From NCBI RefSeq assembly GCF_042242105.1, contig NC_092035.1, forward strand, positions 8,411,477 through 8,475,476: DNA of 64,000 nt, given 5' to 3'. This document shows, piece after piece, positions 31,207 through 64,000 of the stretch (position 1 is the stretch's first letter; each line of letters opens with the position of its first letter). Source of the stretch: Pempheris klunzingeri (taxonomy: Eukaryota > Chordata > Actinopteri > Acropomatiformes > Pempheridae). The notes beneath the pieces were generated by a model. That model did no database searches. It was not told the origin of the DNA and saw nothing but the letters and a program-made list of their open reading frames with translations. The translations under genes were made by a program, and so were the position numbers.

Positions 31207-31207
31207 C

Positions 31208-31239
<32 letters not shown>
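31207..31239. repeat. (TAG)n trinucleotide microsatellite
   Basis: Eleven consecutive trinucleotide copies. The minus strand reads as poly-Tyr in one frame, which is spurious. Confidence 0.95.

Positions 31240-32694: not shown

Positions 32695-32698
<4 letters not shown>

Positions 32699-32726
<28 letters not shown>
32699..32726. repeat. (GA)n microsatellite
   Basis: Perfect GA run; a (CA)n run follows at 32861-32898. Confidence 0.9.
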
Positions 32727-32733
<7 letters not shown>

Positions 32734-32860
32734 ATAGAGCTGATTGTTAGAGTAGCCCCTGATCAGCCAGCCAGCAGGAGAACAGAAGGAGCCAGTGTCA
32801 GGATACAGTACACACACAAACACACACTGTACAACATTCACATATATGTTACTCACAAAA

Positions 32861-32900
<40 letters not shown>

Positions 32901-33560
32901 TAATGAGTGAGGGGGAGAGCAGCATGTGACTGGATAGCAGGTCTCAGTTCTGTAGGTGGACTTGGCTGACTGATCCTGGATCAGTGAGACGTCCTGATGA
33001 TCTCTGAAACTTGCAGATTTTGTTGCAGTTTTCTCGTCATTTAACAGTTTCTCTGCAAGACTTTTGGTGCTTTACAGTGACTTCTACTTGCTGTGATGTG
33101 GCACTAAAAATAAAAAAGGTGAAAAGGCGCCAGATTTTTTTTCTAGAAAAGTTCTGTCCAATGACACATTGCACAATAAAATCTTAATTCAAAGCAAATA
33201 TGTTGGTTTCCAGTAGCTTTTTTATGCAAACAAAGATAGATATCTTGCTTAATAAAAGAGCTCATGGCATTACGTTAAGATTTGACCATATTTGTGATTA
33301 AAACAAATCTTTATCACGTCTATTTTTTTTACCCTTAAATAGTAAAATCCTGCCGCGATGAAAATACTTGCAGGTATGTTTTATTATGTTGATCAGAATG
33401 AGAGAATATTTGTCCCATACAGACAAAAGCTTTGCAATGAATGATAAATCATTTTTATTTATTAACTAGTAAACCAGTTTAAAACGATGCGCACTCCGAA
33501 CAATAGGGGGCGACAAAGTTATCACTAGTTACTAAAAACCGCGAACTCAACTTAAAACAC

Positions 33561-33571
33561 ACCGGAAGCGG
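33561..33571 (+). promoter_or_regulatory. candidate ETS/GABP site upstream of sap18
   Basis: ACCGGAAGCGG contains the ETS core CCGGAAG, about 105 bases upstream of the sap18 ATG. Such sites are typical of TATA-less housekeeping promoters. Function is inferred. Confidence 0.4.
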
Positions 33572-33672
33572 AAACAGACTCGGTCTCATTCGTTGCTGCC
33601 CACGATAAAATAATCAAGCACGGTGGTAGAAGTAGCTGCCGAAGTGCATTAATATATCGGTGAAAAATAACA

Positions 33673-35224: not shown

Positions 35225-35348
35225 TTGTGTGCACACGCCAACGTGAATACATCAACCAGCACGCGTGTTTTTGTTTTTTTTTTGTTTTTATTTCTTCCTT
35301 TGCATCACCTTGGATGGTTTTTGCCTCATTTTACAAAATGTGACGTGT

Positions 35349-35354
35349 AATAAA
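35349..35354 (+). terminator. sap18 polyadenylation signal
   Basis: Canonical AATAAA, in GTAATAAAGTTG, followed by a T-rich stretch, 125 bases after the sap18 stop. Confidence 0.8.
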
Positions 35355-35359
35355 GTTGT

Positions 35360-35779
35360 TTTTTTTTCCAAAGTTTCTGCTTCTTTCTGTGTAACATACT
35401 ATGCGATGATGTTGGGAATTTAATCTTATTTTATATAATGCATTGAACTGTATTTGTATTATGGGGAAACTACTTTTTTTTTTTTTAATCAGATTTAAGG
35501 CAGAAGTTAACAATTAATGCAGTACATGTAACTGCTCTGGGAAGTTGGGAACTAGCTAAGAAACGGATCATCAGTAACTTGGGAAATTATCCAAAATAAA
35601 AATATATTTTTGAGAACTTGAAACCAAAACAGAAGAGAAAGCTTCAAACTAGAAGTTGGACAGGAAAGGTCTGTCAAAAAAATTGCTGCTATGTCATACT
35701 AGTATTGTTGGGTCATCAATGCCGGTGGTCAGTCTGGGGAATTTTATTTTGTTACAATCGGAAGTTGTAGGCTGTCCGG
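35360..35779. other. sap18-rtraf spacer
   Basis: An AT-rich spacer of about 400 bases, with no gene or repeat of note beyond T-runs. The right end passes into the rtraf promoter. Confidence 0.5.
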
Positions 35780-35791
35780 CTGCGCATGCGT
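35780..35791 (+). promoter_or_regulatory. candidate NRF-1 site upstream of rtraf
   Basis: CTGCGCATGCGT matches the palindromic NRF-1 consensus TGCGCATGCGCA over its core. It lies about 95 bases before the rtraf ATG, a typical place in housekeeping promoters. Confidence 0.5.
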
Positions 35792-35883
35792 AGTGCCACA
35801 TACTAAGAGCTAGCAGAGCATACAGCAAAGTTAGCCAGCTGTTAGCTAAAGAAAGCGGCGATTCACACACTAAACACGTGGAA

Positions 35884-38463
35884 ATGTTTCGGAGAAAACT
35901 GACAGCGCTGGATTATCACAACCCTGATGGATTTGACTGCACAGGTAAGATAAAACCGGTCAATGGGCTCTTGAATGTGGTTCGGTGATTTTAACGTAGA
36001 GAGAGCTAACGTGTGTGCAAGTATCAGAAGTCCTGTCACTGGAGACAACGAAACACCAAACTCTAGTTGTCAAATAGCAGTTTCTTGGTGCTGTTGGCTG
36101 GAAAACCTGTATGTCTGCTAGAACACGACATAAAATATTTTACAACCTCTCAGTACACCACACTTTGATTCGGCATAGCTAATTCTAATAACAAAGTACA
36201 GATTGTTCATTTTTTTAATTGTCTATTTTACCCATTGTGTTCATAGTTTTGTTCCAAGAAATTGTTCATGCTTAACCGCGTAACTTGAAAATGACCAACC
36301 AAACAATATATATATAACAATATGAGTAAGATACTCAGATTTCGGGCTCATTACTGGCTGTAAATATTAATTTGTCGCTGTCAAAGCAGCGCGTTAGAAT
36401 GCTAGCTGCTGTCTGCAGCACTGATCTGTCATGTTTACTTTCTCTGCTCTGCTCAGATGAGACACAGTTCAGGAACTGCATCGTGTGGCTGGAGGACCAG
36501 AAGATCCGACATTATAAGATAGAGGACAGAGGAAACCTGAGGAACATCCTCAGCTCAGAGTGGCCCCAAGCCTACCAGAAGGTCAGGCCACCATCACACT
36601 GCCTCATTAAATCCCATTATCATCACACACAATGAGATTTAAACTACTCTTTGACATCTTGGTGCATTGTCAAGCTTTAACTTCTCAAACACACCACCTT
36701 AAATCTGACATTTTTTGAATTTGCTACCAGACAACTGTAACATCATTGTTACAGTCAGTCAGCTGCTTTCTTCCATTCATGATGAAATGAGTTTGAGTGT
36801 CCTTTTCCTGTGTGCAGTACCTGCAGGACGTGAACTGTCCATTTGGAGGTCCGGAGAGGCAGGAGGCTTTAGACTGGCTACTGGGCCTGGCTGTAAGATA
36901 TGAATATGGAGACAATGGTAAGATGACAGCACGTGTTCGTCAGTGGGGAGAACTGTGCCGTTGTTTGGGATGATGTCAGCAAAATGATTTAAAGGATAAC
37001 TTGACGTGGCTGGGTGTGACTTTTGATCATCTCTAGATCAACAATATGTCTGTAAATAAAATGTGCAACACCTCCCTGTGCACCCTTAATTGAAGTACTG
37101 ACGATGGCCAGTAGATGGAGACACTATAAAAGGAATAATGTTTCCCCATGATGCCAGCTCAGCACCACCCTTTGCTGCACAGTCAAGTTACTCTTTCACA
37201 GAAACTGTGCTGGGAATCCATAAACAAAAGCAGTCAGAACATCTGTAAAGTAGCTTTTGTGTTTCTCTCATGTGTTCTGTTCATCTCCTCAGTGGAGAAG
37301 TATAAGAAATGTGAACCGCTGGCAGCCTCCAGCAACACAGACAAAGCCGTGGACCCTCTCGTCAACCTTGACAGTAAGTAGAAACACGTCTCTGCTCCTC
37401 GGCCTGCCCTTGCACTTTGCTCTCTCGCATTCTTTTCTTCAGTCTCTTCGTTCCAGGTGACAGACGGAATTGTCTCGTGTTTGTTTTTGCAGGTAACTCT
37501 CCAGATTTCAAAGCAGGAGTGACGGCTCTGGCCAACATCCTGAAGATACAACGACATGACGACTACCTGGTTATGCTCAAGGTGGGAGTCGGACTTGGTG
37601 TTATACTTGTTTTTATTATCACTATGTATGTATAAAGATATATGTAATAGAAAACTCATGAATCCATTTGTGTTTACATGTACCCCAACAGGCCATTCGT
37701 ATTCTGATCCAGGACAGACTTTCCCCAGAAGCCATCACCAAAGCCAGCCAGAACAGAGAGGTATTGTAAACTTAACATTTGTGTATTTTGCATCAAGAAC
37801 GTCCTCTAGAGATTCCTCTGTCTGCTTTACAAATCTGGAAAAATAAAACATTGCGCTTCCACAAAGTTGGGATGCTCACAAGAGACAGAAAACAACATGG
37901 TCCAAATTGAAGCAGCGGAGGGTCCAGTGCATCTGGACCCTTCAGTTTCCATAATGTAAATGTAAGATCAGTTTGAGGCATTCAGTTAACCCGGGATGAT
38001 AGTGTCTCTGCAGCTCACGCTAACGTGTGTGTTCCTGTGTTTCCAGGGTGTTCCAGTAGCTTTAGACAAGCACATCTTGGGTTTCGACACTGGAGGTGAG
38101 TCTTGCTTGTTTGATGTAAGAAGTACTGATGTTTAAGGGCTTGACAGAAGGTGATGTAACTCAGAGGTCCCCACACGTTTTGGATTGTTATCACTTGAAA
38201 TGATGCAACATCAGTGCATTGCGGTCCGCTCAGACAGGCTGCTCTGTGATCAGACACACACTGTATCCAGTAATCTTCCTCAGTAAAGTAAAATGCTTTT
38301 CTTCTCAGACGCGACTCTGAACGAAGCGGCTCAGATCCTGCGCCTGCTGCACATCGAGGAGCTGAGGGAGCTCCAGACCAAGATCAACGAGGCCATCGTA
38401 GCCGTTCAGGCCATCATAGCCGACCCCAAGACAGACCACAGGCTGGGCAAGGTCGGCAGATGA
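35884..38463 (+). CDS. rtraf: RNA transcription, translation and transport factor (CGI-99/hCLE)
   Basis: Eight exons, 35884-35944, 36457-36581, 36818-36917, 37293-37373, 37493-37581, 37692-37760, 38047-38095 and 38309-38463, join in frame to 242 residues; human RTRAF has 244. Diagnostic stretches are MFRRKLTALDYHNPDGFDC, VWLEDQKIRHYKIEDRGNLR, LANILKIQRHDDYLVMLKAI and the ending ADPKTDHRLGKVGR. The variable part around residues 97-115 (KKCEPLAASSNTDKAVDP) is the least conserved. RTRAF belongs to the RTCB-DDX1-FAM98 tRNA ligase complex, binds capped RNA and shuttles between nucleus and cytoplasm. It lies tail to tail with nid2, as in human 14q22. Confidence 0.98.
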
Positions 38464-41685: not shown

Positions 41686-44600
41686 GATGTTTGGTTATTA
41701 TACAGAGCTAAAATAACATGTCTGACCACTGTTGGAAAAGTGTGTGTGTGTGTGTGTGCAGGTGACAGAGAGTGATAGTGTGTGTGTATGTGTGTTCACT
41801 CATATCTCACCTGGTAGACATTGGCTGGTTGCTATGGCGATGCCGTACAGGTGAGAGCGCTGGTCAGGCAGGTATTCGTCAGTGAACTGACTGCTGTCTT
41901 TGCTCACTGCGATCACGCCATCCCTATGAGGGAGCAGACAGAGAGAGAAGCACTGAGGATGAGGAGGCAGCTTCATCCTGACTGACTATCAGTATTACTA
42001 GTTATCAGTAATAAACAACAGCATGGCAAAATGACACAAAGATGAATGCAGATGGCTACCTCCTCCAGTCAGTGTAATAGAAGTGGTTCCTGTAGTAGAC
42101 CATGCTGAAGGGGTAGTTGAGGCTGGGGTGGATCACTCTTCGACCTGAACCATCCGGGGACACACACTCTAAACGCTTTGTACCTGATGGACAGAGCAAA
42201 ACCACAAGAGGGATCATGGGTACCTTAACCATCCTGCTTTTTAGACAGTATTCACATCTTTTATTTCAAGTTAACAACACAATCCAAGTTACAAGTCCTA
42301 CATCAAAGTATGAATTAATGTAAGCTAACTATTCTTAAAGTACTCATTATATTATTATATATGATTGCTTTAATTATTGCTTATACATTAATATATAATT
42401 AGCATTTTACTTTTAGTTTGTTTAGGTGGAGTAAATTTCACTGTTTCCTTTATCTGTTGGGTTGTCAAGTAACTACAAGTGTCAGACAAATGTAGTGCTG
42501 ACCTTCAATGCCTGGGTCTTTTTGGGAAAAACAGTGTCAATAAAAATATAGATGAAAGGATATTTTAAAAACATGTATAGGAGGTGGCAGCACGTTTTAG
42601 CCCCGTGTCTTGCCTGAAGATCTAGAAAAGTGGTGGTCGTAGTAGTAGAGGTGTTTCTACCTGCATCAGCCCAGCAGATTTGTCCTGAAGAAGAGTCATA
42701 CGTGAGAGCGTTGGGCAAACCAATCCCATCAGACACAACTACCCTGCGGTTCTGACCGTCCACTGACGAGCTCTCAATCTTAGGAGCCTCTCGGTTCCAG
42801 TCTGTCCAAAACAAAGTACTGCAGAGAGAAACACAGGAATTATAAAATATTGGACACTTAAACTCCTTTCTGCTAATTATTTAACTTAATCTGGACTGCC
42901 AAGTAAGCCTGGTTTTGCAGTGAGACTGTGCTTTTGCATGGAACTGGATCTGGCTAATATAATGAGACAAGAGGAAAACCACACACAAGCACTCATACAA
43001 ACACACACACACACACACACTAAAGCAGCTATAGAAATGGTACAAGAGCACAGGGCTCGAGGGACCAGCTGTCTCATGCTGATGAGGTCATGGTCAGGTT
43101 ACTCTGAGCAACGTGTGACCTCTGACCCCGGCTCTCCCAGAGCATTTTTTTGAGGAAAATACTGTCTGACACAGATTTTTCAGTTTTGAATAAAGTAGCT
43201 CCTTCATGTTTCTCATGGATGTGTTACTGTGATGAATCAGATCATATTTTATTGTTTGCAACTTATCAAAAGCTCCAATATGTTGCTCAGCAGGATCATA
43301 GCAGAGCTTTAGGCAGAGTGTGTGTGGGCTGCTTATGACGCCACACTGCTTTTCATGTGTAGATGATGGTGTACATGTGGGCAGACTGGGAACGACAGGT
43401 AATACACACCACATGAGCAATCAGCTTACACACACACACACCACGTATTTACGAGTGTGTGCGTTAATCAATTCGATGAACCTATGGGCAAGCAGATGTT
43501 GGTGTGCGAGACATTCATACATGTGTACAAGTTTTTATAGTGTGTGTACGTAGTTTCAGTGTGGCCGCTTTGCTGTGTGTGGTTATGTTTCTGTGTGTGC
43601 ATGTGCAAGGCCACATGTGCAGGCTCAGAAATCACAGAGCACATGCTTGATCATAAGTGTACCCGTGTGAAGCCGTAATTAGCTTTAGGAGTTGGCCTTT
43701 TGTCAGAAAACACACACATACACATGTACTTGGCCTTCAGTCAGAAAATAAACTGTCAAACCAATAATGTGGAACACACATTGAAGGCTTTATGGTTTTG
43801 GTTATTGCTGCTATGGTTAATCATTTGTATCAACCACATTAACACACACATATACGCACACATACACACACACACAGACCTGTTGATTATGTGATTAGTT
43901 GCAATGATGAAAAGCAGATGTTATTCCTGGGGAGCTCAGCGATGACGGCCTCATGCTTTCATCACGAGTGTGTGTGTGTGTGTGTGTGTGTCCAGGATTA
44001 ATAGCCTCAGTAAATCCAGTACAGTTTTCTTGGCTCCGTTTGGTGAAACAAAGCACTAAAAGTCACTTCTATGACAGAATTATCAAACATGTGTTACTGA
44101 AGGGACACTCCACCCCACAAACCACATCCCACTGATTCCTCCTGCACTCGCCTGTCTCACTCTGATGAAGTCATGTTTGGATCACAGTCTCCCCAGTCTA
44201 CAAACAACAAGACTCCTGTCTGCAAACTGGCCTAAAATATAATCTGTACTGTACTAAAGAATTAGATACAGGCCTTGTTGACTCACAGCCTGTCTGAGGA
44301 CTTGTGTTTGATTTCATGGTTGTGCAAATGAGCTGAAAACCATCTGTGCCCTCTTCTGACAGAAAAAATCACCGTGGATACAGTGAAAGCTGTATCTCAT
44401 TCTGCTTCAGTGGAGCAGCTCCAGGATGTTACACTTGATCGCGAAGACGGTGTGTGGGCGCTTGTTTGTTTCTTGCTCAGGGAAGAGATTTGTACATGTT
44501 TGCAAATCCAGGCTACACTGGCCTGATGGCTTTAGAAGTGGCAGGTTTCATAAGTTGGATGGCTCGATTTTTCGGGATGTGATTTTTTCCCCCTAAAAAC

Positions 44601-47600
44601 ATAAAGCAAGACAAAACAAAAGATACAAAAAGAGAAGCGGCTAGATGGAAAGAGGGCTTTACCCGGTGGAAGAGACCACGATGATGGCCCGGGGGTTGAC
44701 CAAGTCAGTGTCAAACAGCGTCCGCCTCCCACTGCTGTCCAGGTTGGCAGTTTCGATCACATCTGGGTTTGAGTCGACCCAGAACATCAACCTGCGAGTG
44801 ACGTCCACCGCCAAACCCTCTGGACTAACCAGATCTACGTGTAGCAGGGATACCACGTTGAAAGTATTGAGATCATTTCAAACAACACTTCTTAGAGAAA
44901 TGAAGGCGTGTAAGTGTGTGTTCTTACTCGTGTTAATGAGTATCTCAGGCTCGGCTCCAGGCACCATCAAAGCTCTGTTGATCGTCCGTGCGGACAAATC
45001 TGTCCAATAGACTCGGTTCTCTTTGCAGTCATAAGCTATACCAACAACTATGGAACCCTGGAGACACATGTATGAACATTAGCAAACACTTCCTGAGATA
45101 TGTAACATAATTACAACCATCTTTCTTATGTTTCACATGTAAAAACATCCAAACCCACAAGATCTATGTGTATAAACAATATAGAGGTAAGAACTGATGT
45201 CTGTGAGTGTGTATCTGTCCATTCATGTCTTACATGTAGAGTCAGTAGTGTTTTGGACCGAGCAGCATCTAGTCTGGTCCCATTAAGAGGCAACGCTCCT
45301 ATTTTCTGTCCCTGAGCGTACAGCAGTGTGACTTCAGTGTTTGTCGGAGGGGTCACATCTGGGCGGGGCAAGGGGCGCATGGTGGGCGGGGCGACTGAGG
45401 GAAGGCCTGGGACAAGATTGGATGGATAAGAAAAAAATCTGAGCCATGATCGGCGACAATAACACGAGCAGATCTGACCACAAACAGATACCTACATGCA
45501 GGCTTGACAACATCATGTGATCGGGTACCAGGAACCTCCCGTCCGTCCTGGTCCACACACCAGCAGTAAGTGGTCTCTCCATAACACTGGACTGGGCTGA
45601 GAAACAATTCACTTTTTAAGCAATTTCTCAATTAAAAAAAACGTTCAGCTACTGTGTGTGTGTGTGTGTGTGTAGTGTGTACCTGAACTGTCCATCTGGC
45701 TCGCACTGAGGCACATACTGTGTTGGGTCTGGTTTTCCACCATAGTGCTCAATCAAAGTGGTCCTCCATCGCTCACACACACTCTCAGGGCGCTGGGTCG
45801 GAGCCACAGGGACTGAGGAGGACATGAATCAAACACACCCAAAGCTGTTACCATCTTTAAAGTTAGATATAATGCTATAATGATGGTTTGTAAAATTACA
45901 ATTCAGATCTATTCTACTGCAATACATCATCATTTAATTATAATGTCTGGGTGTTTTCTAGCTTGAGTTTATATCACAGTGAAAGGTAGGGTGTTTGATT
46001 AATGGTGTAGAGAGGCCCTGTATTTACAGAAGCACACACACATCTTGCTTTTGTCAATACTGTTTATCTTGTAAAATCCATTTAATAACTCACTTTATAA
46101 GAGAGCTTTAAAACTAAACCCAAAACCACTTCAGTCTTCCACTAATGTTTATACTGGCCTCTCTGAAAATTTATAATTTGAGCTGCAGTTTCTAAACTAA
46201 GAAGGAGATTAGGATAAGGATAGATAGAGGAGGGTGAGAAGAGAACGGTTCTACAGTGAGAGATCAGAGGAGTAAATGAGTGAAAGACTAACTAAACAAT
46301 TAAACTGAATCTCACAATAAGCTTTTTCAGCAGGATTTATTGTAGTGGAGGTTAGCAAACTGCAATCCAGTCTTATGAATCACTTGGTTTTCCTTCAATT
46401 TACTGTTTAACCACATGACCCACTGAAATTAGTGGTTCCCATGACTCTGACGCCCTCTTCCCACAAATGTGGACTGTCCACCAAATCAGTGATTTCAATC
46501 CTCATGCTGATTTGCTCATAAGTTGTATTGGTTACACATAAAGACACATTAACTTCAACCAGCTCACACATTTGAGAGTTTAATGTGGGTGTTTGGTGCT
46601 GCCTGAATCACATACACAGCTAAATTTGTTAGAAATTTAAATTATGAAACCAAATTAAGGGCTTACAATAAGAGGTTCTTGTTTCAAATTCTGATTTGGC
46701 CCAGAGGATATGAATACTAAACCAAAACTGAGCAGGAAATGCCCATGCCTCCCTCATCATGAACTATTACAGAGGAATCCCTGAATAAGGCTCCAGAGCA
46801 GTGACCACCGAAAAATAAATAAAACTGTGGTTGCACTGAGCAGCTTCCAGGTGAATATGAGGCAAAGTAGTCATGAAACATGAGTTCAGATTTTAAGAAA
46901 AACAGACGTACAAATCTACAGGCATGTGTAGGGTGGGTGTGACACCGTTTTGTCACTCATGTTTTGGTTTGGTTGCCAGGCAACATTCAGCAGCTCGTCT
47001 CAGCACCAAATGACCACTTCAGATGTTTGGGTGGTCATAAATGGAATTTATAGCAAGAAGTGAGTTTATAGGGCGGCCTGTGTGTGTTAGAGTGCGAGAG
47101 AGCAGAGTCACAGAGAGGTAGGCAAAGAAACGTCGTGTATTTTCTGTTTAAATTGTTAATCGCCACAAGGACATTCCTTGTTAGATTTTCTTCTTTTTTA
47201 GGATTCTCATTCAATATAATTGTATGTTTTATACTGCAATTTTGCAATTATCAAATGAATTACAGTATATTCAGGTGTAATGACTCTTAGAGGAATATAA
47301 TTCTTTCGAGGATCAACACCACTCTGCTACACACAATATAAGCTTCCAGGAAGCCTCTACAGCTCACAAACTCCATTTCATGTTTTTTAATCCGTACAAA
47401 AACCACATTGTAATTTGTGGTTTTATGTGGACAGACTATTTCGTGGGCGGCTGCAGTGACTTGTTGTCTTGTTGTCACTTTGAGGTTGCCAGGCAACGAG
47501 CACAGACTTCAGTGAGCCTTACAGGTGCTGCTAAAGTAGATTTTAACACCTTTGGACGAGCTGTGTCCTAAATAAGAATTTTCATGATCAAATCTGATTC

Positions 47601-50600
47601 GTCAAGTATTTGCTGATCATCAAATTGCGCCTTTTTTTTTCCATATTCTCCTTTGTGACATTTGATTGGTCATATTTCACGTACAGACATGCTGAGAGTT
47701 CTTCTCATTGACCTCTCGTATTCACCAAAATGTTATGCTATTCTTTGATATAAGTTGTATTTCGCTTGGATGCACAAATCATTGGCTGAATCGATATCTG
47801 TGAAACTCAAAGCATCACAAGCAGTGATACCAGCCTCACCTGGTCTATCACAGTCTACAGATGGTGTACCAGGTGGAGTTCTGGTTCCTGCCCTCTCCTG
47901 CCCCAAACTGTCCACACACCAACAATGTCCAGAGGAACCATGGCACTGAAATACATTATGATTAAAAACAATATTCTCTATATCATAAAGATAAGGAATG
48001 AAAACAAGAAAAATAGGAATCCACATGCGTCTGCAGAGTAATCACAGTTGTACCTGTCTGGGTAGGTACTGTCCCTCTGCGTCACACTGAGGAACAAAGC
48101 TTCCAACAATAGGATATCCCTCTGGACTGGTGGTCTGTCCGCTGTCTCTGCGCTGCTCACAGTGTGTCTTAGGACGCTCTGGTTTATCTGGCGAAAAAAA
48201 GAGGAAACACACACAAGTCCTTGACAAAACTGTTTATACTGTAGGTCATTATGATTGACAGAACAGCTTTTCACACTGGTTATGTCTCCTGACTGCCAAG
48301 ACTGCCTTTATTGCCGTCAGGCTTTATCCCGATCCTGACCTTCAAACTCTATAAAGACGACCTTCATCTTTCTTGCCTTTCTTCAGGCTCATGGGTGGGC
48401 GTTGGGAGTCTGTGCATCTCAAGCGGTTTCCTCATTATCTCAGTTTAGCAGTAGCAAAACTATTCTCCTCAAAAAATTCTGCATTCTGTCACTTGTACCA
48501 ACTTTATTAACAATGATTTGGTCAGTGGGAGTTTTTAATCTGTACCTGTCTGTAAGACTTTCTGGTATGCATGAACTTTGTAGTAATTAATCCTGACATC
48601 TGCAGCGCCTCTTTATTATTACAATAATAATGACTCCTGCACGGACTGTTATTCTAGTACAGTCCCTGTCAGCTATCTGGCATGCACCATGGCCATTTCT
48701 CTTTTTGTGGGTTTGACTTGTTCAAGGTCTTCTCATATCTTGAATAAACTATGTACCATAAATATTTCTGGTTAGCCTTGTGTCGAAGTCCTAAAACTAA
48801 GTGTTATTCTGCACCTTCATTCTGGCCTGACTGAGATGATAAAAGCACCTTGTTATATCCACTGCAACACTTACGTATAAAACATAGTCCAAGGGGTCTG
48901 AGGCACAATAAAAATGTAGTCTCACCTGGTCTGTCACAGTCTTTGGGTGCTGTACCAGGTGGAGTCCTGGTTCCTGGCCTCTCCTGTCCCCTACCGTCCA
49001 CACACCAGCAATGTCCAGAGGAGCTGTGGCACTAAAACAGTAATGACTGATATCAAAATGATGGTTACATCTCTTTGTGTTGCTATGGCACAAACACAAT
49101 AAATAAAGATAATGTAAGTATTATGTTAATGATTATATTATATAATTACAAGTTAGTTAAATTGATAATACAACACTGTAAAAGACAGTAAAATAGGTCA
49201 GTCATTAGATGCTGACCTGCAGTGGTAGGTACTGCCCATTAGCATCACACTGGGGAACATAAGCTCCAATAACAGGATATCCCTCTGAACTGGTAGCCTG
49301 TGCTCTTTCTCTGTGGTGTTCACAGTGAGTTTTAGGACGCTCTGGTTCATCTGGAAAACATTTACAAGTTTACACAAGTTATTAATCACAAATTGTTTCT
49401 AGTAAACCTCAAGCTGCAGGTCAGAGTGATATGATTTAAAATCCACATCCTGGTGTGTTATTATGCTTTACGGCGTCAACATGTCAGTAATGTTTTACAG
49501 ACTGTTGGACCTCAGCGTGCACTCATCAAAGAGGACAACTGCACTCCTTGCTGTCCCTCTCCAGTCCTACAATGCAGACGACAATCAAGTATCTTGGCAA
49601 GCTGAGCTCTGAAATACTTTTCCATCCTCTTTGCTGGTATCACACTGACTCCTGCACAGACTGCAGTCTTAGTACGATCCCTGACGTACCCCTTCATTAC
49701 GGGCATTTCTTGTTCTGTAGGACTTTACTACAACATTTGACTTTGCTCAGTGGATTGTTCAAGCTGTCCTTGTACCCTGTAAAAACTGTTATAAATCCCC
49801 CTGGCTGGATTTCTGAAGTATTTTTTGTCTCTCTACAACTCATCTAGAATTCTGCAGAGGGTTTGTGTTTGTGTGTAATCAGCCTATATTATATGATATA
49901 TATTATATTTTGTGTATCAGCTTGCACCTTCACTGCTTCTTGGTTCAGATGTTGCAACCTGCTGTACATATCCACCCAAGTGTTTAGATCGATATGAAAC
50001 TTGGGTAGCTTGTCTCACCTGGTCTGTCACAGTCTTTGGGTGGTGTACCAGGTGGAGTCCTGGTTCCTGGCCTCTCCTGTCCCCTACTGTCCACACACCA
50101 ACAATGCCCAGAGGAGCCGTGGCACTAGAACAGTAACGATTTATATCAAGATGCTGGTTACATTTCTCCATGTTACACAAAGCTGGATTAACATCATAAA
50201 TAAAATGAAATCATCTGTCACCAGATGCTAACCTGCAGCGGCTTGTACTGCCCGTCAGCACTGCACTGAGGAACATGAGCTCCAACAATAGGATATCCCT
50301 CTGGACTGGTGGTCTGTACACTGTCTCGGTGGTGCTCACAGTGAGTTTTAGGACGCTCTGGTTCATCTAAGGATTATGGAATGGAAACATTAGTAAGCAG
50401 ATAGTTAACCCAAAGTACAATGAGTAGGGCTAGTTCAGATGTTGCAACCTGCTGCACATATCCACCCAAGAGTTTAGATCAATATGAAACTTGGGCAACT
50501 TGTCTCACCTGGTTTGTCACAGTCTGCAGCTGTTGTACCAGGTTGAGTCCTGGTTCCTGCTCTCTCCTGCCCCCTACTGTCCACACACCAGCAATATCCA

Positions 50601-53600
50601 GTAGAGCTATGGCACTGAAGTGATAATGAAAGGTCATTTAACTATTATGTCAAGATTTCTATACATGTTGGTCAAAATAATACAAAGACACAGGTGAAAC
50701 ACAGTGAAAAAATGTCAAAAGATGTTTACCTGCAAAGGTACGTACTCCCCATTAGCATCACATTCAGGTGCAAAGGCTCCAAGTAAAGGATATCCCTCTG
50801 GACTGGTGGTCTGCACACTGTCCCTATGATGCTCACAATGAGTTTTAGGACGCTGTGGTTCATCTGGAGAAGAAAAATGGAAGCATTTTCATCATTTCAA
50901 GTAATTGGTAAATGTAGCTGTTATTTGCAAAACACAGGTGAGTCATTATGCTGTCTCATAGACTCTTAGCTATTATATTTAGGAAATACTAATTCAGCAC
51001 ATCAGTATCTTTCACTGAGTTAGATATTCAACGTTGTCAATGGTTATATGACCTAATTTCTTGCTTTGGCTGATGGACTCTTTCCTTTGTCCCGGTCCTC
51101 TTAAATCTTTCACAAGATTTCCACGTTTAAAGTCTTTAGGACATACGGCCTCCTCCCTGACTGTGCATGGGTTATCTGTTTTTACCACTCATCCTCTGCA
51201 CTGAGGCACCACATGGCTCACATGGCCCATTACTATTCCTCCCCACACCAGATCCCTTAACTATGTTGGAATAACCCAAAACCTCCCTGCTACAGACCTC
51301 TCATTTCCTGCTTGGACTACTTTAAATCTGAAAGCTGCACAAAATTTGATTTTACCTGCTGTAGATTACCATTATCTCCCCTCCATTACAGGTTCCTATT
51401 TAACTGAGAGCCAGTACTTGGATATTCTAATAAATCCCAATAAGTTTGGATGCAACAAGTCAGTCTCACCTGGTCTGTCACAGTCTTTGGGTGGTGTACC
51501 AGGTGGAGTCCTGGTTCCTGGCCTCTCCTGTCCCCTACTGTCCACACACCAACAATGTCCAGAGGAGCCGTGACACTGAAATACACAACAATCATAGTGT
51601 AATCATAATGACACAGCAATGACACATTGTCTATTCAGTAAAAAAAAAAACTTACCTGTTGAGATATGTATTGTCCATTAGCATCACACTGAGGTACAAA
51701 CACTCCTGGTATGGGATATCCCTCTGGACTGGTAGTCTGTACACTGTCTCTATGCACCTCACAGTGAGTTTTATGACGCTCTGGTTCATCTGGTTGAGAA
51801 AGATGGACAATAAGAGGATCATATACATGTTCTTTTACAACATGTATAGCAGCAGATAGAACTGTCAATCAAAGTTTAAATACATTGAACAATACTAGAC
51901 TAAACAATTAGATCTACCTTATTCATTTCTTATGCTCTAAAAAGTTTGTTATTACAGGAATAAAAACATGCAAAGGCTTCTACTATAGGTTAATGCAAGA
52001 TTGTAGATTGAGCTGTGTTTGTGTAAAGAGCTACAAATGTACTTTAACAAGGCACATTTTAAAGGGATGACTAGGGTAATGTTTATTTTTTCACGGACAA
52101 CTTGTAGTAAAAAATGGCCAAAGGTCATAAAATCTATTCAGCTGGTCTATTTCTGTGTCAACCTTTAGGTAACATGAGAAAAAATAACTAAGTCGCATTG
52201 CAGTTACACATGGTATGCCAAATGTACTTTTTTCCTTGTATTTCTTTAGCTTAATCTTACTCTGCCTTTGCTTTTGACTTCCCATCACACACAGTGATAT
52301 CACCTGTTTTTACAGGCATTCCAAGGCTATGACCCAATGACCTCAATAGTGCACCACTTACAAGGTTAGACACACACTCGTGTAAACGTGCTGTCTGTTT
52401 GACTTGTCACTGAGTTGAGGAATTAGTGGGTTCACAGGTCAATGTTTAGCAAGAAAGCCTTGGGAGGCCATGACACAACACACCTGTTGATGCTGGGAGT
52501 GTTACCACAGACAACACAACAGTTTAAAGCACTCACGGGAAGCTGAATAGAGGGAGACATCTCTCTTTTCATGTATATTTTTCTCTCTCACCTGGTCTGT
52601 CACAGTCTGTGGGTGGTGCACCAGGTGATGTCCTGGTTCCTGCTCTCTCTTGTCCCCTTCTGTCTACACACCAACAATGTCCACTAGAGCCATGACACTA
52701 AAAAATATACATTTTATTAATTTCATGTGGTTAGAATTTCTTATGTTACATTAACTGAAATTCAATACCAGTTCATCTGCCTGTCAATTAGCCGATCAGT
52801 CAATAGATACTGACCTGCAGTGGCGTGTATTGCCCATTAGCATCACACTGAGGTACATAGGCTCCAACAACAGGATACCCCTCGGGACCGGTGGTCTGTA
52901 CACTGTCTCTGTGGTGCTCACACTGAGTTTTGGGACGCTCTGGTTCATCTGAGGAGGAAAGGAAAAATTTATTTACACTACTACTCTAACAAAAATGGGC
53001 CACAATTACAAGAGAGTGCTGGTAATCAACAGGTTATTCTTTATCTGTTTAATGCATAAAAAACTGAAATGTAAAAATAAACTGTTGTTTGCAAGTGAAT
53101 AATGACAACACTATAAAGCTGGGACTTTCCTCCAAATAAGATTAAGTTTGGTGTGTTTGCACAGTCACAGCAGCGCCTCAATGCCTCAATGCAGTGCGCA
53201 TATGCTGCCAGCTGAAATCTCACCTGGTTTGTCACAGTCTGTGGTTTGTACACCAGGTGGTGTCCTGGTTCCTGCTCTCTCCTGTCCCCTACTGTCCACA
53301 CACCAACAATCTCTAGAGGAAATATGGCACTAAAATAGAAATAGTAGTAACCATAATAAATTGATGTATTTCAAGTTAGTTAAATTGCTGACATGAAAAT
53401 GTTTCATGGAATAAACAAATTATAAGCACGGACTTGTAAGGGCTTGTACTGTCCATTAGCATCGCACTGCGGTACATAGGCTCCAACAATAGGATATCCC
53501 TCTGGACTGGTGGTCTGTACACTGTCTCTGTGGTGCTCACAGTGAGTTTTAGGACGCTCTGGTTCATCTGTGAAGAATTGAAAAAGTAATGACAATTATT

Positions 53601-56437
53601 CATAATTATGCTCTTGCATAAATTGCTAATGTAGTCTCTCAAGGAAAAGACTGATTTCTCTGCCCTGCTGGTTAGCAAATCCTAGCACAAACATTTTGCA
53701 TGCATCTTTTGATCCCATCATATTCTCATCATGTAATGAGCTTCAAGAAAATTAGTTTATTAAATAATTAGCATTTAAAAAGCGGAATGTTGTGTCCCGT
53801 CCACTTCCTTAGGCTTAGCTAAGCTAACACAAAGATGAGAAGATGAGTCCCTTTAAAAAGATAATTTTCATCTTTGATCCTTCTTGTTGGAGATGAGGCA
53901 CACCAGGATGTTGTCATCTGCATATAGGAGCATTTCTTGTGGGTTAATGGCCAGATGTACCATGCTGGCTCCAAGTTACGATCCATGAGTTTCTTATTGG
54001 CTTTTAATGGGGAGCTTGACTTATACTGAGGACTTAAAGTTGGGACATCTGGCCCTTTCCGCTCCGCTTTCTCTTTTTTCTGTCGATCTCAAGTTCCCTA
54101 ACTTTATGGATGTCTAAATGAAGAAGCCCTTAAATGTAAGGGGCTTTTGCATGAAACCTTAATATGCTAAGATAATAAGAACACCCTGAAAGAACATGTA
54201 CATTTTGGGAAGGATGAATGAGAATTCCTTTTCCTCACCTGGTTTGTCACAGTCTGCAGCCGTTGTACCAGGTTGAGTCCTGGTTCCTGCTCTCTCCTGC
54301 CCCCTACTGTCCACACACCAGCAATATCCAGTAGAGCTATGGCACTGAAGTAATAACGAAAGGTCATTTAACTATTATGTCAAGATTTCTATACATGTTG
54401 GTCAAAATAATACAAAGACACAGGTGAAACACAGTGAAAAAATGTCAAAAGATGTTTACCTGCAAAGGTACGTACTCCCCATTAGCATCACATTCAGGTG
54501 CAAAGGCTCCAAGTAAAGGATATCCCTCTGGACTGGTGGTCTGCACACTGTCCCTATGATGCTCACAGTAAGTTTTAGGACGCTGTGGTTCATCTGGAGA
54601 AGAAAAATGGAAGCATTTTCATCATTTCAAGTAATTGGTAAATGTAGCTGTTATTTGCAAAACACAGGTGAGTCATTATGCTGTCTTATATACGCCCCTC
54701 TGCTCACATCAGTTTCTTTCGCAGAGTAAGTCCAAATAACAGTTTTTAAGGTTATATGAACTAATTTCTTGCTTTTGTTGATGGGATCTCTCTTTCCTCA
54801 GTCCCTGCCCTTTTAAAATGGCAAAGATCTACTCATATCCCACATGGACTTACACTGAGCTACACTAAAGTTACATTGATTCCTACATCTCATTTTAAAA
54901 GCTGCACAATGTTTGATTTTTATCTATTATCCTGGCTCCCCTTCATATTTAACTGAGAACCAGTACTTGGATATTTTAATAAATCCCAATAAGCTTGGAT
55001 GCAACAAGTCAGTCTCACCTGGTCTGTCACAGTCTTTGGGTGGTGTACCAGGTGGAGTCCTGGTTCCTGGCCTCTCCTGTCCCCTACCGTCCACACACCA
55101 ACAATGTCCAGAGGAACCGTGACACTGAAAATACACAATAATCATAACGTAATCATAACGAAACAGCAATGACATAATGTATCTATTTAGCAAAAAAAGA
55201 TCTTACCTGCTGAGATGTGTATTGACCATTAGCATCACACTGAGGTACATAGGCTCCAACAATAGGATATCCTTCTGGACTGGTGGTCTGTACACTGTCT
55301 CTGTGGTGCTCACAGTGAGTTTTAGGACGCTCTGGTTCATCTGAGGAGATAAATATGAACAAATGTAAAAGAAAACACACACACACAGTAACCTAATTCC
55401 TTTCTTGAAGACCAACCTCTTGGAACAGAGTTATCAACATTGAAAACACAGTTGTTGCTATCAAGCAATCACAATCAAACTGTCAATGTTTTTTCAGTGG
55501 TTTTATGTGTCACCTGGTCTGTCACAGTCTTTGGGTGGTGTACCAGGTGGAGTCCTGGTTCCTGCTCTCTCCTGTCCTCTACTGTCCACACACCAACAAT
55601 GCCCAGTGGAGCCATGGCACTAAAATGAGTATTAAATCAAATCAGTGCATCACTTGACTCAGGCCATCAGTTAGACATACACATTACCACTGTATCAGTC
55701 AGCACTCACTTGCAGCGGTCGATACCGTCCATCAGAGTCACACTGAGGGATGAAGGCTCCGGGACTTGGACGACCATCTTGTTCCACTCCACTCTGCAGA
55801 CTGTCTCTGTGCTGCTCACACTGGCTCTTTGTGTGACCTGTCTGTGCTGTAGACAAAGAATATTAAAAAAAATATGAAAACTTTTTCTTATTGTCTTATT
55901 TTCTTTCCTCCCATATCTTTGTACCATATTTATGTATTTGTTTATGTTCCTATCAGGCAAACTGTAATGTCAAACATGTTTCTACACACCTACAGTGCAG
56001 GAAAACTGAGAAGCTTCAGACAATGAAATAAAAGTGAAGTGAAATTAAAGTAATTGGAAAAAAAACAAGTGTAACCTTTATCACCATCATGCATGAATAT
56101 AGTGGTATTTTTACTAACCTTGCTGCTCAGAGCAGAAGAAACCATCACCATAAAACCCAGGATGGCACTGACACTGGAAGGAACCCAGTCCATTGATACA
56201 TCTGGCATTGATATGACAGGGAGAGGAGCTGCACTCATCCATGTCTAAGGAAACAGACGGAGCAAAATGTTGAAACACATTCTGTAATTTCCACAAAATG
56301 TATATCGTTATATAAAATAATATCTTAACAGTATTTGATCTGTTTATTCAGTTTATTCCAAAAATTATCGGTCAAGGAGAGAGGTAGGGAGAGTTTAAAG
56401 GGAGTTCATCGAAAGTTCACACTGATGGGTGAAAAGA

Positions 56438-56480
<43 letters not shown>

Positions 56481-59400
56481 CAGGACCTCTCTCCTCCACT
56501 CATTCCAAAGCAAAACACCCGTTGTGTCATTGATCCATTTGTCTTTTACTTTCACCCCCTCTCCAGTCTAATCTCACACCCTACTTCTCACATTAGTCCT
56601 CTCATTTCCACTCTCGTTCTCACATTTGTCACCCATCCCCCCCTCTTGCTGTGTTTCCTTGCTTTTGCAGCTGTGTGTTACTGTTGTGGAAGAAATTTAG
56701 GGCCTGCGCCTGGAAAAAAATATGTGGGTCTCTTCCAAATATTCAGTTCATTTTGGAACATGCAACACTAAAAGCTCCAAAACATCTCTTACGTGACCAA
56801 CAAGTACAACTGACAACCAACCCATTGAATTTACAAGATGAGATCATGATGAAGATGGGAGAATGACATGGCCATTGTAACAAAGAAGGTTCATTTCTAA
56901 TTGCCTGTTAAGAGTATCACATCTATCAAAATTACAGTATATGCAATAAGACGTGTGTCATGGTGCTCAGCTCAAAGATAAACTACCACATTCATTAGAG
57001 AGAATAAATAACAGGCGTTGAAACATGTGCAACAACTTCAGCAGACATAAACACTTCATCTAACACTGACCACCATAAACAACTAGTCACACCACACCAA
57101 ATAAAGTTGTAGCAGCAAAACCTGACTGCATAAAGCTACAAGTGTGTTTTATGATACTGGAATTCAATTTTTTATTTGTAAAAGGTAAGATGTGTTGTTT
57201 CTTTTTTCAAATGTTACATGCCTTACTTACTTTAACTTTCAATGAAGTGCCATGTGTATGTTAATATGCTAACTTCAGCCTAAAACGGCACAGTGCCCAG
57301 AAACAGCCTTACATAGCTTAGAGCGTGGCAAGAGTCTTGTTTTCAGAAAGAGCTCAGAACTTAAACTCATGTCATGAGCACATACTGTACACAGTAGTCT
57401 TATCGCTAGTACATTTTAGAAATTGTAACTCACCAACACAGGTACGCCCGTCATAGCCAAACTCAAAGCCGCTGTGGCACTGGCAGCGATGGCTCCCAGG
57501 CAGGTTCATGCACTGAGCATGAGCACCACATGAACTCAAGCCCTCAGCACACTCATCTATGTCTGCAGAGACAGAAAAGGAGAGAAAGTGTGGCATTTAG
57601 TCTCATTTAGAGTCTATGAACTCATAAACCAGGAATTCCCTCCCCTATCTAAAACATAACAAACTGTAGGTGTATGTGAGTGCAAAGCCTGTAATTAAGG
57701 GTCATTACTGGTGCTTTTAGTACATATACATTGCATGTCTGCATGCTTGTGTTACTATAACATGTACCCCTACACCTGGAGTCTTGTCTGCATCCTTAAA
57801 TGTATTGTGGAACATACAGTACAAAACCACAAAGAGATTATGTGACCAGAGAGAGAAACTGAGGCCCAATCATGGGAACCAAGGCCAAGCCTGGGGCTTT
57901 CCTAGTGCTGTCAGCAGGAGAGAAAGACCTGCTGCTGGGGTAATGATAGGCCACGCAACAGCTTTAATGTTGCAAGAGAAGAGAAGAGAAGAGAAGAGAA
58001 GAGAAGAGAAGAGAAGAGAAGAGAAGTGATTCCTTCCATCCAGCCTGTACTTGACCCCACTGCACTGGATGGGCAGATGTTGATGAAACACAGACAGACT
58101 GCCTTGAACTGTCTTTAACTTTGTCTGCCTGTGTTTATGTGAGTAAGCGTGTGAGGGAGACCCTGTCAGACTAAGACAAATTAAGAGAAGCACCATGAAG
58201 CACTTTGTAATCGACATACTCTGTCACAATGCTGGACAGTATATCCAGGAAAACTTCTTTAGCAGGATGTTGTATGTGCTCAAAGATACCGTAGCAGTTG
58301 CGTCCATCCCCTCTGTAACCAGTCGCACACTGGCACTGGAAGGCCTGGCCCTCCAGTGGGATACACTGGGCTGTCGTGTCACAGTCGTGGTTCCCAGCGT
58401 AGCAGGGGTTGACCAGCTCCGGCCCCGTTGGCTCAACTACAGAGTGGAAGGGAGACACATGAAGTGACAAGAATTATTTCAGTTCATCATTGTTTGATAT
58501 AGGACAACAGTGATTCAAGCCTAAACGTATTATTCTGAAGACCTGCTGTTTAAGAGAAAATCCACTGTACTCAGGATGGAGACAGTAATGGATTATCCTG
58601 TACCTCGGTACTTGTCTTTATGGCTTATGTTACGGTTTTCCATGTTTAATTTACTATCACTGAATGAATTTTAAGAATACAAGCCGTAAGTATTCATTAT
58701 GCGGAATGGCCCTTAGTCCAGAGGGGCACATGACAAGAAAAAATCTACTGCACACCTGCACAGCCTCTGCAACACTCCAAACGTCCTGAATTGAGATGAA
58801 TTGAGATCTGGATCATTCAACAGTTAAAGTCCAATGATTACAGCGATGATTACAGGACAGCCTAACCAAACACACATGGCAACTCACGCCAGACAAATTC
58901 CCATAGGACGGTTTCCTCTAAGGAAGTAACTCCCTCTATGTTCTCAATATTCAACATATGGGTAAGGTTAGACACACATGTACATGAGAGAGATGAACAG
59001 ACGGAGGGATGAGTGAGCGGATGTGTGTGCGGGGTTCGCTCATACCAACACACAGCTCGGACACACAAGACAATTTAAACAACAATCCTCAGACTTATTT
59101 CTGGCAAAATCAGAAAGAAAACCAGCAGAGAAAAGAAAGCAGAGAAATCATTAGAAAAGAATGTGAAAGACTTAAATAAATAAGTGCTGCTCTGCTTCAA
59201 AATGTTCCTGAGAGCATACATCAGGATGGCGGTACAGTGGGAATCCAACCCCAAATCCTGGCTGTTAAATGCCTTTCTCTACCAACTGAATCTAATCCAC
59301 TGAAATGTTTTATTCTAAAAGCATTCATCTGATCATGTGCCTGGTTTGTTTGTGGATTTGACAGGCAGACCACCTCAAAGAAAAACTCACATCACTAAGA

Positions 59401-62400: not shown

Positions 62401-63756
62401 GAATACACATATCCAGTATTTCAGCATTTCTCGGTATAAATTGTTCTTTTGAGGCCCACGTTCTTATTGAGCACTTAATGTTCTGGTCTGTGTTTCTTCA
62501 CATGGTTGTTGTTGTTTTCAAGTTTGATGTACTATAACTGTTCCTGTCTTTTGAGCATGTTTTTAATGTTCGCTGGCTGAAAAGCAAATTGCCATTCAGG
62601 AACTAATTGAGGTTTACTTTACTTTCTTTCATCACAGTTATACTGTCCTGAGGGTGAACAGCCTGTGAAACAACATTTAGATCATTTCAGGGGATTACAC
62701 CTTACGATTACAACCTTAGATGCTACTTACATTAATGCTGCCATTACAATTTGTGTAAAAACCTTAATATTAAAGGGAGGAGAAAGAGACATACATATTC
62801 GTAAATACATCTGTGGAACTGAATCAAAGTATTTCATTAAACCAAATTCAGCCAAGGGGTTAAGATGATAGTACCAATCAGCTCCACAGTAAATAAAATT
62901 TCCACTGACAGCACCCCATCTGGTTTGTAATAAGAGCTCGATATCTGCAGGTGACGTGTCCATCTAAACCCGGTTTGACTCACCTCCGACTGGGCTGATC
63001 TTGTTGGTAATGGCATATCTCAGGATCCGCTCCTCCTTGACGTACATTACAAACACCCTCTCCATGGTGATCTGCAGCGTCTCCGGGGCAGCAGCACGGT
63101 TGTCATGTCGACAGCCACGGTAAGTGATGTTCTGCTTCAGCTGGAAGGAGAAGGACTCTGAGCCTCGGTCTGCTGAAACCACCGAAAACTCCCTCACAGA
63201 GGTGGAGGTGACAACTGCAGAGAGAGAAGGAGGGGGTTGCAGGCAAACGGAGACATCAAATGTTACACATAATTTGACTGGTGGTGTTAGGTTTACCAGA
63301 TGGGTAGTACTGATAGGTCTCCTTGAAGGGATCCATGGTAACTTCAGCTCCAGGGGGCAGGAAGGGCACATTGCCGTTGATTACAGTATCCACAGTGAGG
63401 TGGTTGTGGTCATCAAGGCCACGGCCTGTCTGGATGATAGACAGGCGCTGGTTGCCTGGATAGAAGATCACCTCTGCACGACGAGTGAACTCAGCACCTG
63501 GTAATATAATCATTCCATCAATAAATCAATTTGTTTGTTTATCTATTTATAGATTTTCATTTTCATACTGCAGACATAACAATGCAGCAGTAGAATATCA
63601 TAAAAAAGTGAAATGTCTGCAATGATTAGCTCTGTACACACGTGCATCTACGTCTACATGCGCACACACAAACAGCTGCTTCCTATTAGAGAGGGGAGGT
63701 GGAAGCCTGATATCACATCACATCCCTGGAGACAGTACAGCTGGCTGGGGAGACCA

Positions 63757-63787
<31 letters not shown>

Positions 63788-64000
63788 CCCCACACAAACA
63801 CTGCAGAGAGGAGTTCCCTCATCTTGCAGATGTGAAAAGTGAAAAGTCAAGATGTACAAGTCAATGTACTTTATCAAACACACACACACACACACAGTTT
63901 ACCTGTGACTTTGAATCCTGCTTGGCTATTGGGCAGCTCCAGAGCAAATAGCCATCCAAACAGTTCCCCTATCGGTGCAACTGGCATCAGAGCCCAGCCC
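40219..64000 (-). CDS. nid2: nidogen-2 with expanded thyroglobulin array (5' end off the window)
   Basis: Thirty-five exons join in frame to 1,481 residues plus one base; the N-terminal NIDO region lies beyond 64000. Order: G2 barrel (63903-64000, 63297-63497, 62984-63214); three EGF domains (58290-58436, 57434-57562, 56119-56244); ten tandem thyroglobulin type-1 units (55846 down to 47840); an eleventh unit (45683-45812, 45496-45596); the YWTD propeller (45234-45406, 44928-45057, 44663-44834, 42661-42818, 42060-42183, 41811-41923); and an 11-base last coding exon (40219-40229). The end [17 protein letters not shown] stops soon after the propeller, as NID2 does, and lacks the final EGF of NID1. 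Nidogens bridge laminin, collagen IV and perlecan in basement membranes. Human NID2 has 1,375 residues and two thyroglobulin domains, so this protein should be several hundred residues longer. Confidence 0.95.
41811..45406 (-). other. nid2: nid2 YWTD (LDL-receptor class B) propeller exons
   Basis: Six exons encode the propeller that binds the laminin gamma-1 chain in nidogens. Blade motifs are [41 protein letters not shown] and [10 protein letters not shown]. The second blade has FWVD in place of YWTD. The first exon starts with a Pro-rich linker ([19 protein letters not shown]) that matches the human NID2 linker PTVAPPMVRP. Confidence 0.93.
42819..44662 (-). other. nid2 intron within the propeller
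   Basis: About 1.8 kb with no exon. It holds CA and TG runs at 43003-43020, 43421-43440, 43840-43875 and 43971-43991. Confidence 0.6.
45496..45812 (-). other. nid2: nid2 last thyroglobulin type-1 domain (ancestral second copy)
   Basis: Exons 45683-45812 and 45496-45596 encode a domain beginning [17 protein letters not shown] and containing [26 protein letters not shown] and KPAC. It matches the second thyroglobulin domain of human NID2 (CERWRENLLEHYGG) closely, so it was not part of the local expansion. The donor GTAGGT at 45495 was chosen over GTATCT four bases later because only it keeps the frame into the linker. Confidence 0.92.
45813..47839 (-). other. nid2 intron between the ancestral second unit and the array
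   Basis: About 2 kb of AT-rich sequence with no exon or decayed thyroglobulin unit that I can recognise. Confidence 0.55.
50505..51800 (-). repeat. duplicated block, copy 1 (units D and E)
   Basis: Units D and E with their introns match units H and I at 54235-55345. The 115-base intron inside D and about 100 bases past its acceptor side are almost identical to those of H. E and I also share the flanking intron text ending ATGCAACAAGTCAGTCTCAC. This is a segmental duplication nested in the array. Confidence 0.85.
54235..55345 (-). repeat. duplicated block, copy 2 (units H and I)
   Basis: Counterpart of 50505-51800, offset by 3,730 bases at D/H and 3,549 bases at E/I because of indels in the intron between the units. 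The intron in I is 82 bases against 80 in E. In H one base change turns KTHC into KTYC. Confidence 0.85.
56440..56478. repeat. (CA)n microsatellite
   Basis: Perfect CA run of 38 bases in a nid2 intron. Confidence 0.95.
57975..58026. repeat. (AGAGA)n pentanucleotide microsatellite
   Basis: About ten tandem copies of GAGAA in the intron between the first two EGF exons. Confidence 0.95.
58437..62983 (-). other. large nid2 intron between G2 and the first EGF exon
   Basis: A 4.5 kb intron without recognisable exons. It holds a tRNA-like repeat at 59222-59297, (CA)n at 59729-59755 and 60783-60830, and GA-rich stretches near 59570-59720. Confidence 0.6.
59222..59297 (-). repeat. tRNA-derived SINE head or tRNA pseudogene
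   Basis: On the minus strand AGATTCAGTTGGTAGAG resembles an A box. GGTTGGATTCCCAC, about 30 bases later, differs from the B-box consensus GGTTCGATTCC by one base. Spacing fits a tRNA body, but the anticodon arm is not convincing, so I read it as a SINE head. Confidence 0.5.
62984..64000 (-). other. nid2: nid2 G2 domain exons (partial at window edge)
   Basis: 63903-64000 encodes [16 protein letters not shown], matching PLAPVGGIIGWMFAVE of NID1. 63297-63497 encodes [16 protein letters not shown] and [16 protein letters not shown]. 62984-63214 ends [16 protein letters not shown]. Together they form most of the G2 beta-barrel that binds perlecan and collagen IV. The domain start and everything N-terminal to it is outside the window. 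Confidence 0.93.
63759..63787. repeat. (CA)n microsatellite
   Basis: CA run in the nid2 intron; a second short run lies at 63877-63896. Confidence 0.9.

Follow-up and report, generated by a model that had tools for sequence, protein, structure and literature searches.

The window analysed here is a 64,000-nucleotide stretch of the genome of the fish Pempheris klunzingeri (RefSeq assembly GCF_042242105.1, contig NC_092035.1, positions 8,411,477 to 8,475,476), within which positions are counted from the first letter. Its minus strand carries a gene assigned to nidogen-2 (nid2), in which an array of 22 exons, running from 55846 to 45496, encodes eleven thyroglobulin type-1 (TY) domains in one reading frame. 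Nidogens are widely conserved linkers of the basement membrane; human NID2 has two TY domains and NID1 has one.

Gene structure and the thyroglobulin type-1 array

The splice sites were fixed by hand for each exon, with weight given to an unbroken frame and to domain content. Joined in this way, 34 exons leading from the G2 β-barrel through three EGF-like modules and the array into the G3 propeller encode 1483 residues (315 upstream of the array, 879 within it and 289 downstream) and are open throughout. The spliced 22-exon array contains no stop codon; the other two frames of the 34-exon splice contain 29 and 108. AG/GT borders are present at 22 of 22 array exons and at all 34 spliced exons, which by itself is weak evidence with boundaries picked by hand. 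The gene runs 5' past the end of the window, and its 3' end lies outside the spliced model. Each TY domain is encoded by two exons, denoted A and B. The eleven units, all recognized by splicing and Pfam (additional grounds in parentheses), are as follows.

55514-55846, minus strand: TY unit 1, a chimeric unit whose A exon is old and whose B exon is of the array type; exons 55846-55710 and 55619-55514 (exon-wise divergence)
55019-55340, minus strand: TY unit 2; exons 55340-55207 and 55124-55019
54239-54593, minus strand: TY unit 3; exons 54593-54460 and 54344-54239
53224-53567, minus strand: TY unit 4; exons 53567-53434 and 53329-53224
52592-52948, minus strand: TY unit 5; exons 52948-52815 and 52697-52592
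51470-51789, minus strand: TY unit 6, block partner of unit 2; exons 51789-51656 and 51575-51470 (intron identity)
50509-50863, minus strand: TY unit 7, block partner of unit 3; exons 50863-50730 and 50614-50509 (intron identity)
50019-50366, minus strand: TY unit 8; exons 50366-50233 and 50124-50019
48926-49350, minus strand: TY unit 9; exons 49350-49217 and 49031-48926
47840-48187, minus strand: TY unit 10; exons 48187-48054 and 47945-47840
45496-45812, minus strand: TY unit 11, the divergent last unit with a phase-2 inner intron; exons 45812-45683 and 45596-45496 (identity comparison)

Every one of the eleven units matches Pfam Thyroglobulin_1 (PF00086), and the joined protein gives 11 stretches with a total of 718.9 bits. 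The six cysteines and the CWCV motif are kept in all 11 units, giving 66 cysteines in 879 residues, and 21 columns, the six cysteines included, are identical throughout; in unit 11 the codon of the last cysteine is split by an intron. Units 2-10 each consist of an A exon of 134 nt and a B exon of 106 nt (240 nt), compared with 137 + 106 nt in unit 1 and 130 + 101 nt in unit 11. Units 1-10 have a phase-0 inner intron and are separated by phase-1 introns, so that A plus B forms a symmetric 1-1 cassette; since it starts and ends in phase 1, whole copies can be gained or lost with the frame intact. The exon lengths place the inner intron of unit 11 in phase 2. Linkers of about twelve residues with several prolines separate the units. 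The array has a computed isoelectric point of 5.8, and neither an N-glycosylation sequon nor an RGD motif occurs in its 879 residues. Tandem Repeats Finder (longest period 500), applied to 44000-57000, reports an AC run only; successive units begin at intervals of about 0.5-2.4 kb, with diverged introns.

A first-pass annotation made from the letters of the window had described a nidogen-2 with eleven TY domains between its EGF part and its laminin-binding propeller. Its coordinates and strand are exact, the domain count and the nidogen identity are borne out by the Pfam matches, the open frame and the matches of G2 and G3 to nidogen structures, and the position of the array follows from the 34-exon splice and its domain matches. 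The cysteines, CWCV and frame are kept as it stated, nine units do share one coding length, and its figure of about 720 additional residues is right relative to two TY domains (9 × 80).

In the intron between units 3 and 4, a single 16-residue frame on the minus strand (53889-53936) contains a motif like YADD, the active-site motif of LINE-type reverse transcriptases; the segment is probably an old transposon fragment inside the array.

Assignment to nidogen-2 and other nidogen loci

The remaining features of the spliced gene, supported by splicing and by the matches given, are the following.

62984-64000, minus strand: part of the G2 β-barrel, three exons, 64014-63903 (extending 14 bases past the window end), 63497-63297 and 63214-62984; Pfam G2F (155 bits), PDB code 1gl4 (nidogen-1 G2, E 1.6e-52)
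56119-58436, minus strand: three EGF-like exons, 58436-58290, 57562-57434 and 56244-56119; Pfam EGF_3 (three stretches) and EGF_CA
41811-45406, minus strand: G3 YWTD propeller, six exons, 45406-45234, 45057-44928, 44834-44663, 42818-42661, 42183-42060 and 41923-41811; Pfam Ldl_recept_b (three stretches), PDB code 1npe (E 5.3e-80, chain residues 4-263 of 267)

Reading frames matching connexin, SAP18 and RLL (RTRAF) in Pfam adjoin nid2 at 29752-36635, and no Rfam family matches the window at its gathering score.

The single reading frame thus presents the domains in nidogen order, G2F barrel, EGF-like modules, TY and YWTD propeller, and Pfam recognizes Thyroglobulin_1, G2F, EGF families and LDL-receptor class B in the joined protein. 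A PDB search with the G2 part (E up to 0.001) returned two distinct sequences, both nidogen-1 (1gl4 and 1h4u). The G3 part matched nearly the whole chain of nidogen 1npe; the rest of the 36 distinct PDB sequences found with it were LDL-receptor-type propellers that share the fold. Upstream of the window end by 5-13 kb, the minus strand carries three NIDO (G1) matches, at C24:8488595-8488783 (E 1.1e-11), 8488267-8488380 (1.1e-5) and 8480596-8480694 (2.8e-6); the nid1 loci described below give stronger ones, two of the three stretches contain one stop, and all are outside the spliced model. The assignment to nidogen-2 as opposed to nidogen-1 is provisional and draws on the nearby RLL (RTRAF) and SAP18 frames, human NID2 adjoining RTRAF, and on two other nidogen loci with one TY domain each.

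These two further loci, at C12:18.32 Mb and C3:1.13 Mb, contain NIDO, EGF, TY and YWTD exons arranged as in nid2. Within the 30 kb read at each there is one TY domain, encoded by a single exon, whereas the TY domains of nid2 are split over two; we take these loci as two nid1 copies. The inner TY intron, absent from the one-exon TY of the nid1-like genes and in phase 0 or phase 2 in nid2, may therefore have arisen or moved repeatedly. Zebrafish has four nidogen genes, nid1a, nid1b, nid2a and nid2b (PMC7044464). The present genome has at least one nid2 locus: no NIDO match was found near a TY match outside C12, C3 and C24, and querying the genome with one unit returned 32 matches (20 within the array, covering units 1-10, and 12 outside it) but no further series of units, although both searches scored the best candidates only, so that absence is not shown.

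Sequence conservation and selection

For the 36 pairs among units 2-10, the mean synonymous divergence (dS) is 0.44 and the mean nonsynonymous divergence (dN) is 0.115, with a dN/dS of 0.26. Variable columns number 31, 19 and 48 of 80 at the first, second and third codon positions, respectively. Neutral evolution of nine independent copies was simulated on a star tree with 4000 runs per rate. With the rate set to 0.08, 0.12 and 0.2 substitutions per site in each copy, the nine copies were all still free of stops in 0.2%, 0.025% and 0% of runs, and on average 9.6, 13.8 and 20.5 of the 54 cysteines were lost; the observed units have lost no cysteine and contain no stop. The lowest of these rates is below half of the observed mean dS. 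By these measures, the encoded TY domains show the marks of purifying selection, and we have very little doubt, judging from the open frame and the domain matches, that the array is real coding sequence.

Exchange between units and origin of the array

The array combines a symmetric, phase-matched cassette with sequence traces of exchange, as in an exon-amplified array. Comparison of introns identifies units 2-3 and 6-7 as a duplicated block: the inner introns of units 3 and 7 are 98.3% identical and those of units 2 and 6 are 86.1% identical, and intron 2-3 and intron 6-7 (425 and 606 bases long) are 91.3% identical where aligned, with large gaps. Within this block, 54234-54690 and 50504-50960 (units 3 and 7) form a tract of 457 bp that is 98.7% identical. 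One end of the tract lies in an intron and the other five bases beyond the B exon; the adjoining intron aligns at about 67-76%. In coding sequence, units 3 and 7 are 98.8% identical and the other 35 of the 36 pairs among units 2-10 only 78.8-91.7%. Our reading is that the tract is conversion-like and was laid over an older block duplication, and its length and identity suggest that sequence exchange went on after that duplication. The two copies of the tract are candidate sites of conversion and of unit-number polymorphism. The start of intron 7-8 also resembles intron 8-9 (93.4% over 76 bases).

The two exons of unit 1 have different affinities. Its A exon differs from those of units 2-10 with a mean proportion of synonymous differences (pS) of 0.74 and a nucleotide identity of 59%, compared with a within-array pS of 0.39 for A exons, and is about as distant as the A part of the C12 nid1 TY is from units 1-10 (pS 0.71, identity 58%). 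Its B exon, with a pS of 0.24 and an identity of 89%, resembles the B exons within the array (0.25 and 87%). An old A exon has thus been joined to an array-type B exon, which makes unit 1 a chimera. Unit 11 shows mean nucleotide identities to units 1-10 of 49% (A) and 53% (B) and protein identities of 37-43%. Units 1-10 are 55-65% identical in protein sequence to the nid1 TY of C12 and 46-57% identical to that of C3, compared with 45% and 38% for unit 11.

The first-pass annotation had read the array as ten two-exon units followed by the ancestral last one. The two-exon in-frame cassettes hold, but unit 1 is not an ordinary member, and an ancestral unit 11 is not supported: it has low identity to units 1-10 and a phase-2 intron, and units 1-10 are the more similar to the nid1 TY. 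The last unit was dropped as the seed of the array on the same grounds. Unit 11 and the array may nevertheless share a very old common origin, as the branch to unit 11 is long (1.14).

The tree of whole units is unrooted and weak, with support of 19, 23, 24, 29, 31 and 39 at inner nodes; higher values are found for units 3 and 7 (96), units 2 and 6 (87), the nid1 pair (87) and unit 11 plus nid1 (75). Unit 11 and nid1 together branch from unit 9 in this tree (support 19), as does nid1 in the B-exon tree (80); these placements, which we take as long-branch attraction, lend no support to our view of unit 11. The trees, all unrooted, do not establish the order of units. The A exons suggest, at sites that are saturated, at least three old TY lineages in nid2, represented by unit 1, units 2-10 and unit 11.

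Functional implications

In human nidogens the TY domain sits in the rod between G2 and G3 of this linker of the basement membrane (PMC10972974). The best explanation of the locus, as far as its sequence can tell, is a functional nidogen-2 in which repeated copying of a two-exon TY cassette has extended the rod between G2/EGF and G3. Unequal exchange would set the number of units, the symmetric cassette allowing in-frame gain and loss, and copies have exchanged sequence through block duplication and conversion-like tracts. Eleven disulfide-knotted domains joined by proline-containing linkers would then form a long spacer between the perlecan/collagen IV-binding and laminin-binding ends, the binding of laminin, perlecan and collagen IV being predicted from the homology of G2 and G3 alone. 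On balance, we lean towards the spacer being the selected property of the array. The first-pass annotation had offered a longer spacer, a multivalent protease inhibitor or a protease-resistant segment as hypothetical functions.

Several points weigh against this interpretation. The array is known here from genomic sequence alone, and the one fish genome covered bears on how far its fixation and age can be judged. The TY domains of thyroglobulin are not known to form a simple rod, and by analogy with thyroglobulin packing the length of the nidogen rod need not rise linearly with TY number. What a low dN/dS demonstrates is maintenance of the fold rather than selection on length, and the star-tree simulation ignores shared ancestry and conversion and hence overstates the contrast with the observed units, most of all for close pairs such as units 3 and 7.

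A more elaborate proposal, which we put forward tentatively, is that the array is a length-tunable linker: unit number would vary between individuals and species by ongoing unequal exchange and between tissues by skipping of A + B exon pairs, adjusting the reach or compliance of the bridge from laminin to collagen or perlecan in steps of 80 residues. Given the symmetry of the cassette, splicing is predicted to be able to skip whole units in frame. In a pipefish, a gene with the best match 'nidogen-2-like isoform X5' was 6.14-fold lower in the pregnant than in the non-pregnant pouch (PMC5168715), a record which indicates that a nidogen-2-like gene is regulated there and that predicted isoforms are named, but does not bear on the array.

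Unit number might instead be nearly neutral, drifting through unequal exchange, with units kept foldable as misfolding would spoil a secreted protein. The traces of exchange between units are in keeping with this, purifying selection on the fold would be expected here too, and domains have been amplified by exon duplication in another teleost gene (PMC3484663). However, the large dS among most units (mean 0.44) implies that a long array has apparently persisted, even if conversion can blur such dating, and we consider drift alone rather unlikely.

The array could also act as a multivalent protease inhibitor or decoy (thyropin), its units blocking or occupying cathepsins or metalloproteases and so protecting the basement membrane. 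Compared domain by domain, saxiphilin (69.6 and 64.4 bits) and p41 (59 bits), both inhibitors (PMC7863939), supply the highest-scoring TY domains of solved structure, with thyroglobulin domains reaching at most 49.5 bits; but similarity in the TY core is no predictor of inhibition, and by whole-chain score thyroglobulin comes first owing to its many TY domains. Along units 2-10, the ratio of nonsynonymous to synonymous proportions (pN/pS) is highest at residues 67-80 (0.96) and 21-31 (0.58), with 0.39, 0.18, 0.22, 0.21, 0.0 and 0.39 in the other six stretches; the value at 67-80, however, stems largely from a low pS (0.145), for which reason diversifying selection at these residues was rejected. 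Inhibition by nidogen TY domains is undemonstrated according to the same review (PMC7863939), and cathepsin S cuts human nidogen-1 inside its TY domain (PMC3429489), a cleavage that also argues against the human domain being protease-resistant. An inhibitory role is therefore doubtful.

That the units were multiplied in assembly, by haplotype copies or misjoined reads, is very improbable: the near-identity of units 3 and 7 could be so explained, but the window contains no N, the other 35 pairs differ far beyond the usual allelic difference, intron lengths differ between copies and the frame is unbroken throughout.

Comparison with known systems

The preferred reading, a nidogen-2 rod lengthened by cassette amplification, combines a known protein with a known domain; what is unusual is the TY count and its mode of origin. 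With vertebrate nidogen-2 (NID2; zebrafish nid2a and nid2b), the gene shares the order G2F, EGF, TY and YWTD, and RLL (RTRAF), SAP18 and connexin frames lie nearby here; it differs in having eleven TY domains in place of the two of human NID2. At five times or more that usual number, the array offers a natural experiment on the spacing of the laminin and collagen/perlecan ends and on the purpose of the nidogen TY domain itself. A review words the rod of nidogen as containing 'a Thyroglobulin type-1 domain' (PMC10972974), and a nidogen-like prediction from a sea squirt has three TY motifs (PMC3464141). Among the matches listed in searches of openly accessible papers, none describes TY amplification or a TY array in a vertebrate nidogen; the array may well be annotated already in some database.

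Thyroglobulin likewise carries many TY domains in one chain and is the top whole-chain PDB match of the unit profile (13 stretches, eight past the cut-off). In that protein, linker, hinge and type-2 segments break up the series of repeats (PMC13078365), whereas nid2 has nine uniform, uninterrupted units.

The closest parallel in mode of origin is teleost piccolo b, in which a domain exon has been amplified to 8-16 copies and unequal crossover has been proposed (Nonet 2012, PMC3484663). That survey covered 1598 genes that have a single mouse homolog but are present twice in zebrafish; among pairs with one unchanged copy, four had gained three or more domains, two of these being misannotations, and piccolo b itself went undetected owing to poor annotation. 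Its author calls the case very rare among characterised zebrafish genes, and the word 'nidogen' is absent from the main text (PMC3484663). The unit in piccolo b is a zinc finger encoded by one exon; that of nid2 is a two-exon cassette, accompanied by a conversion-like tract and a chimeric unit. Comparable to piccolo b, nid2 is thus a case of domain amplification in which the exchange events, from the chimeric first unit to the block duplication and the conversion-like tract, are still legible.

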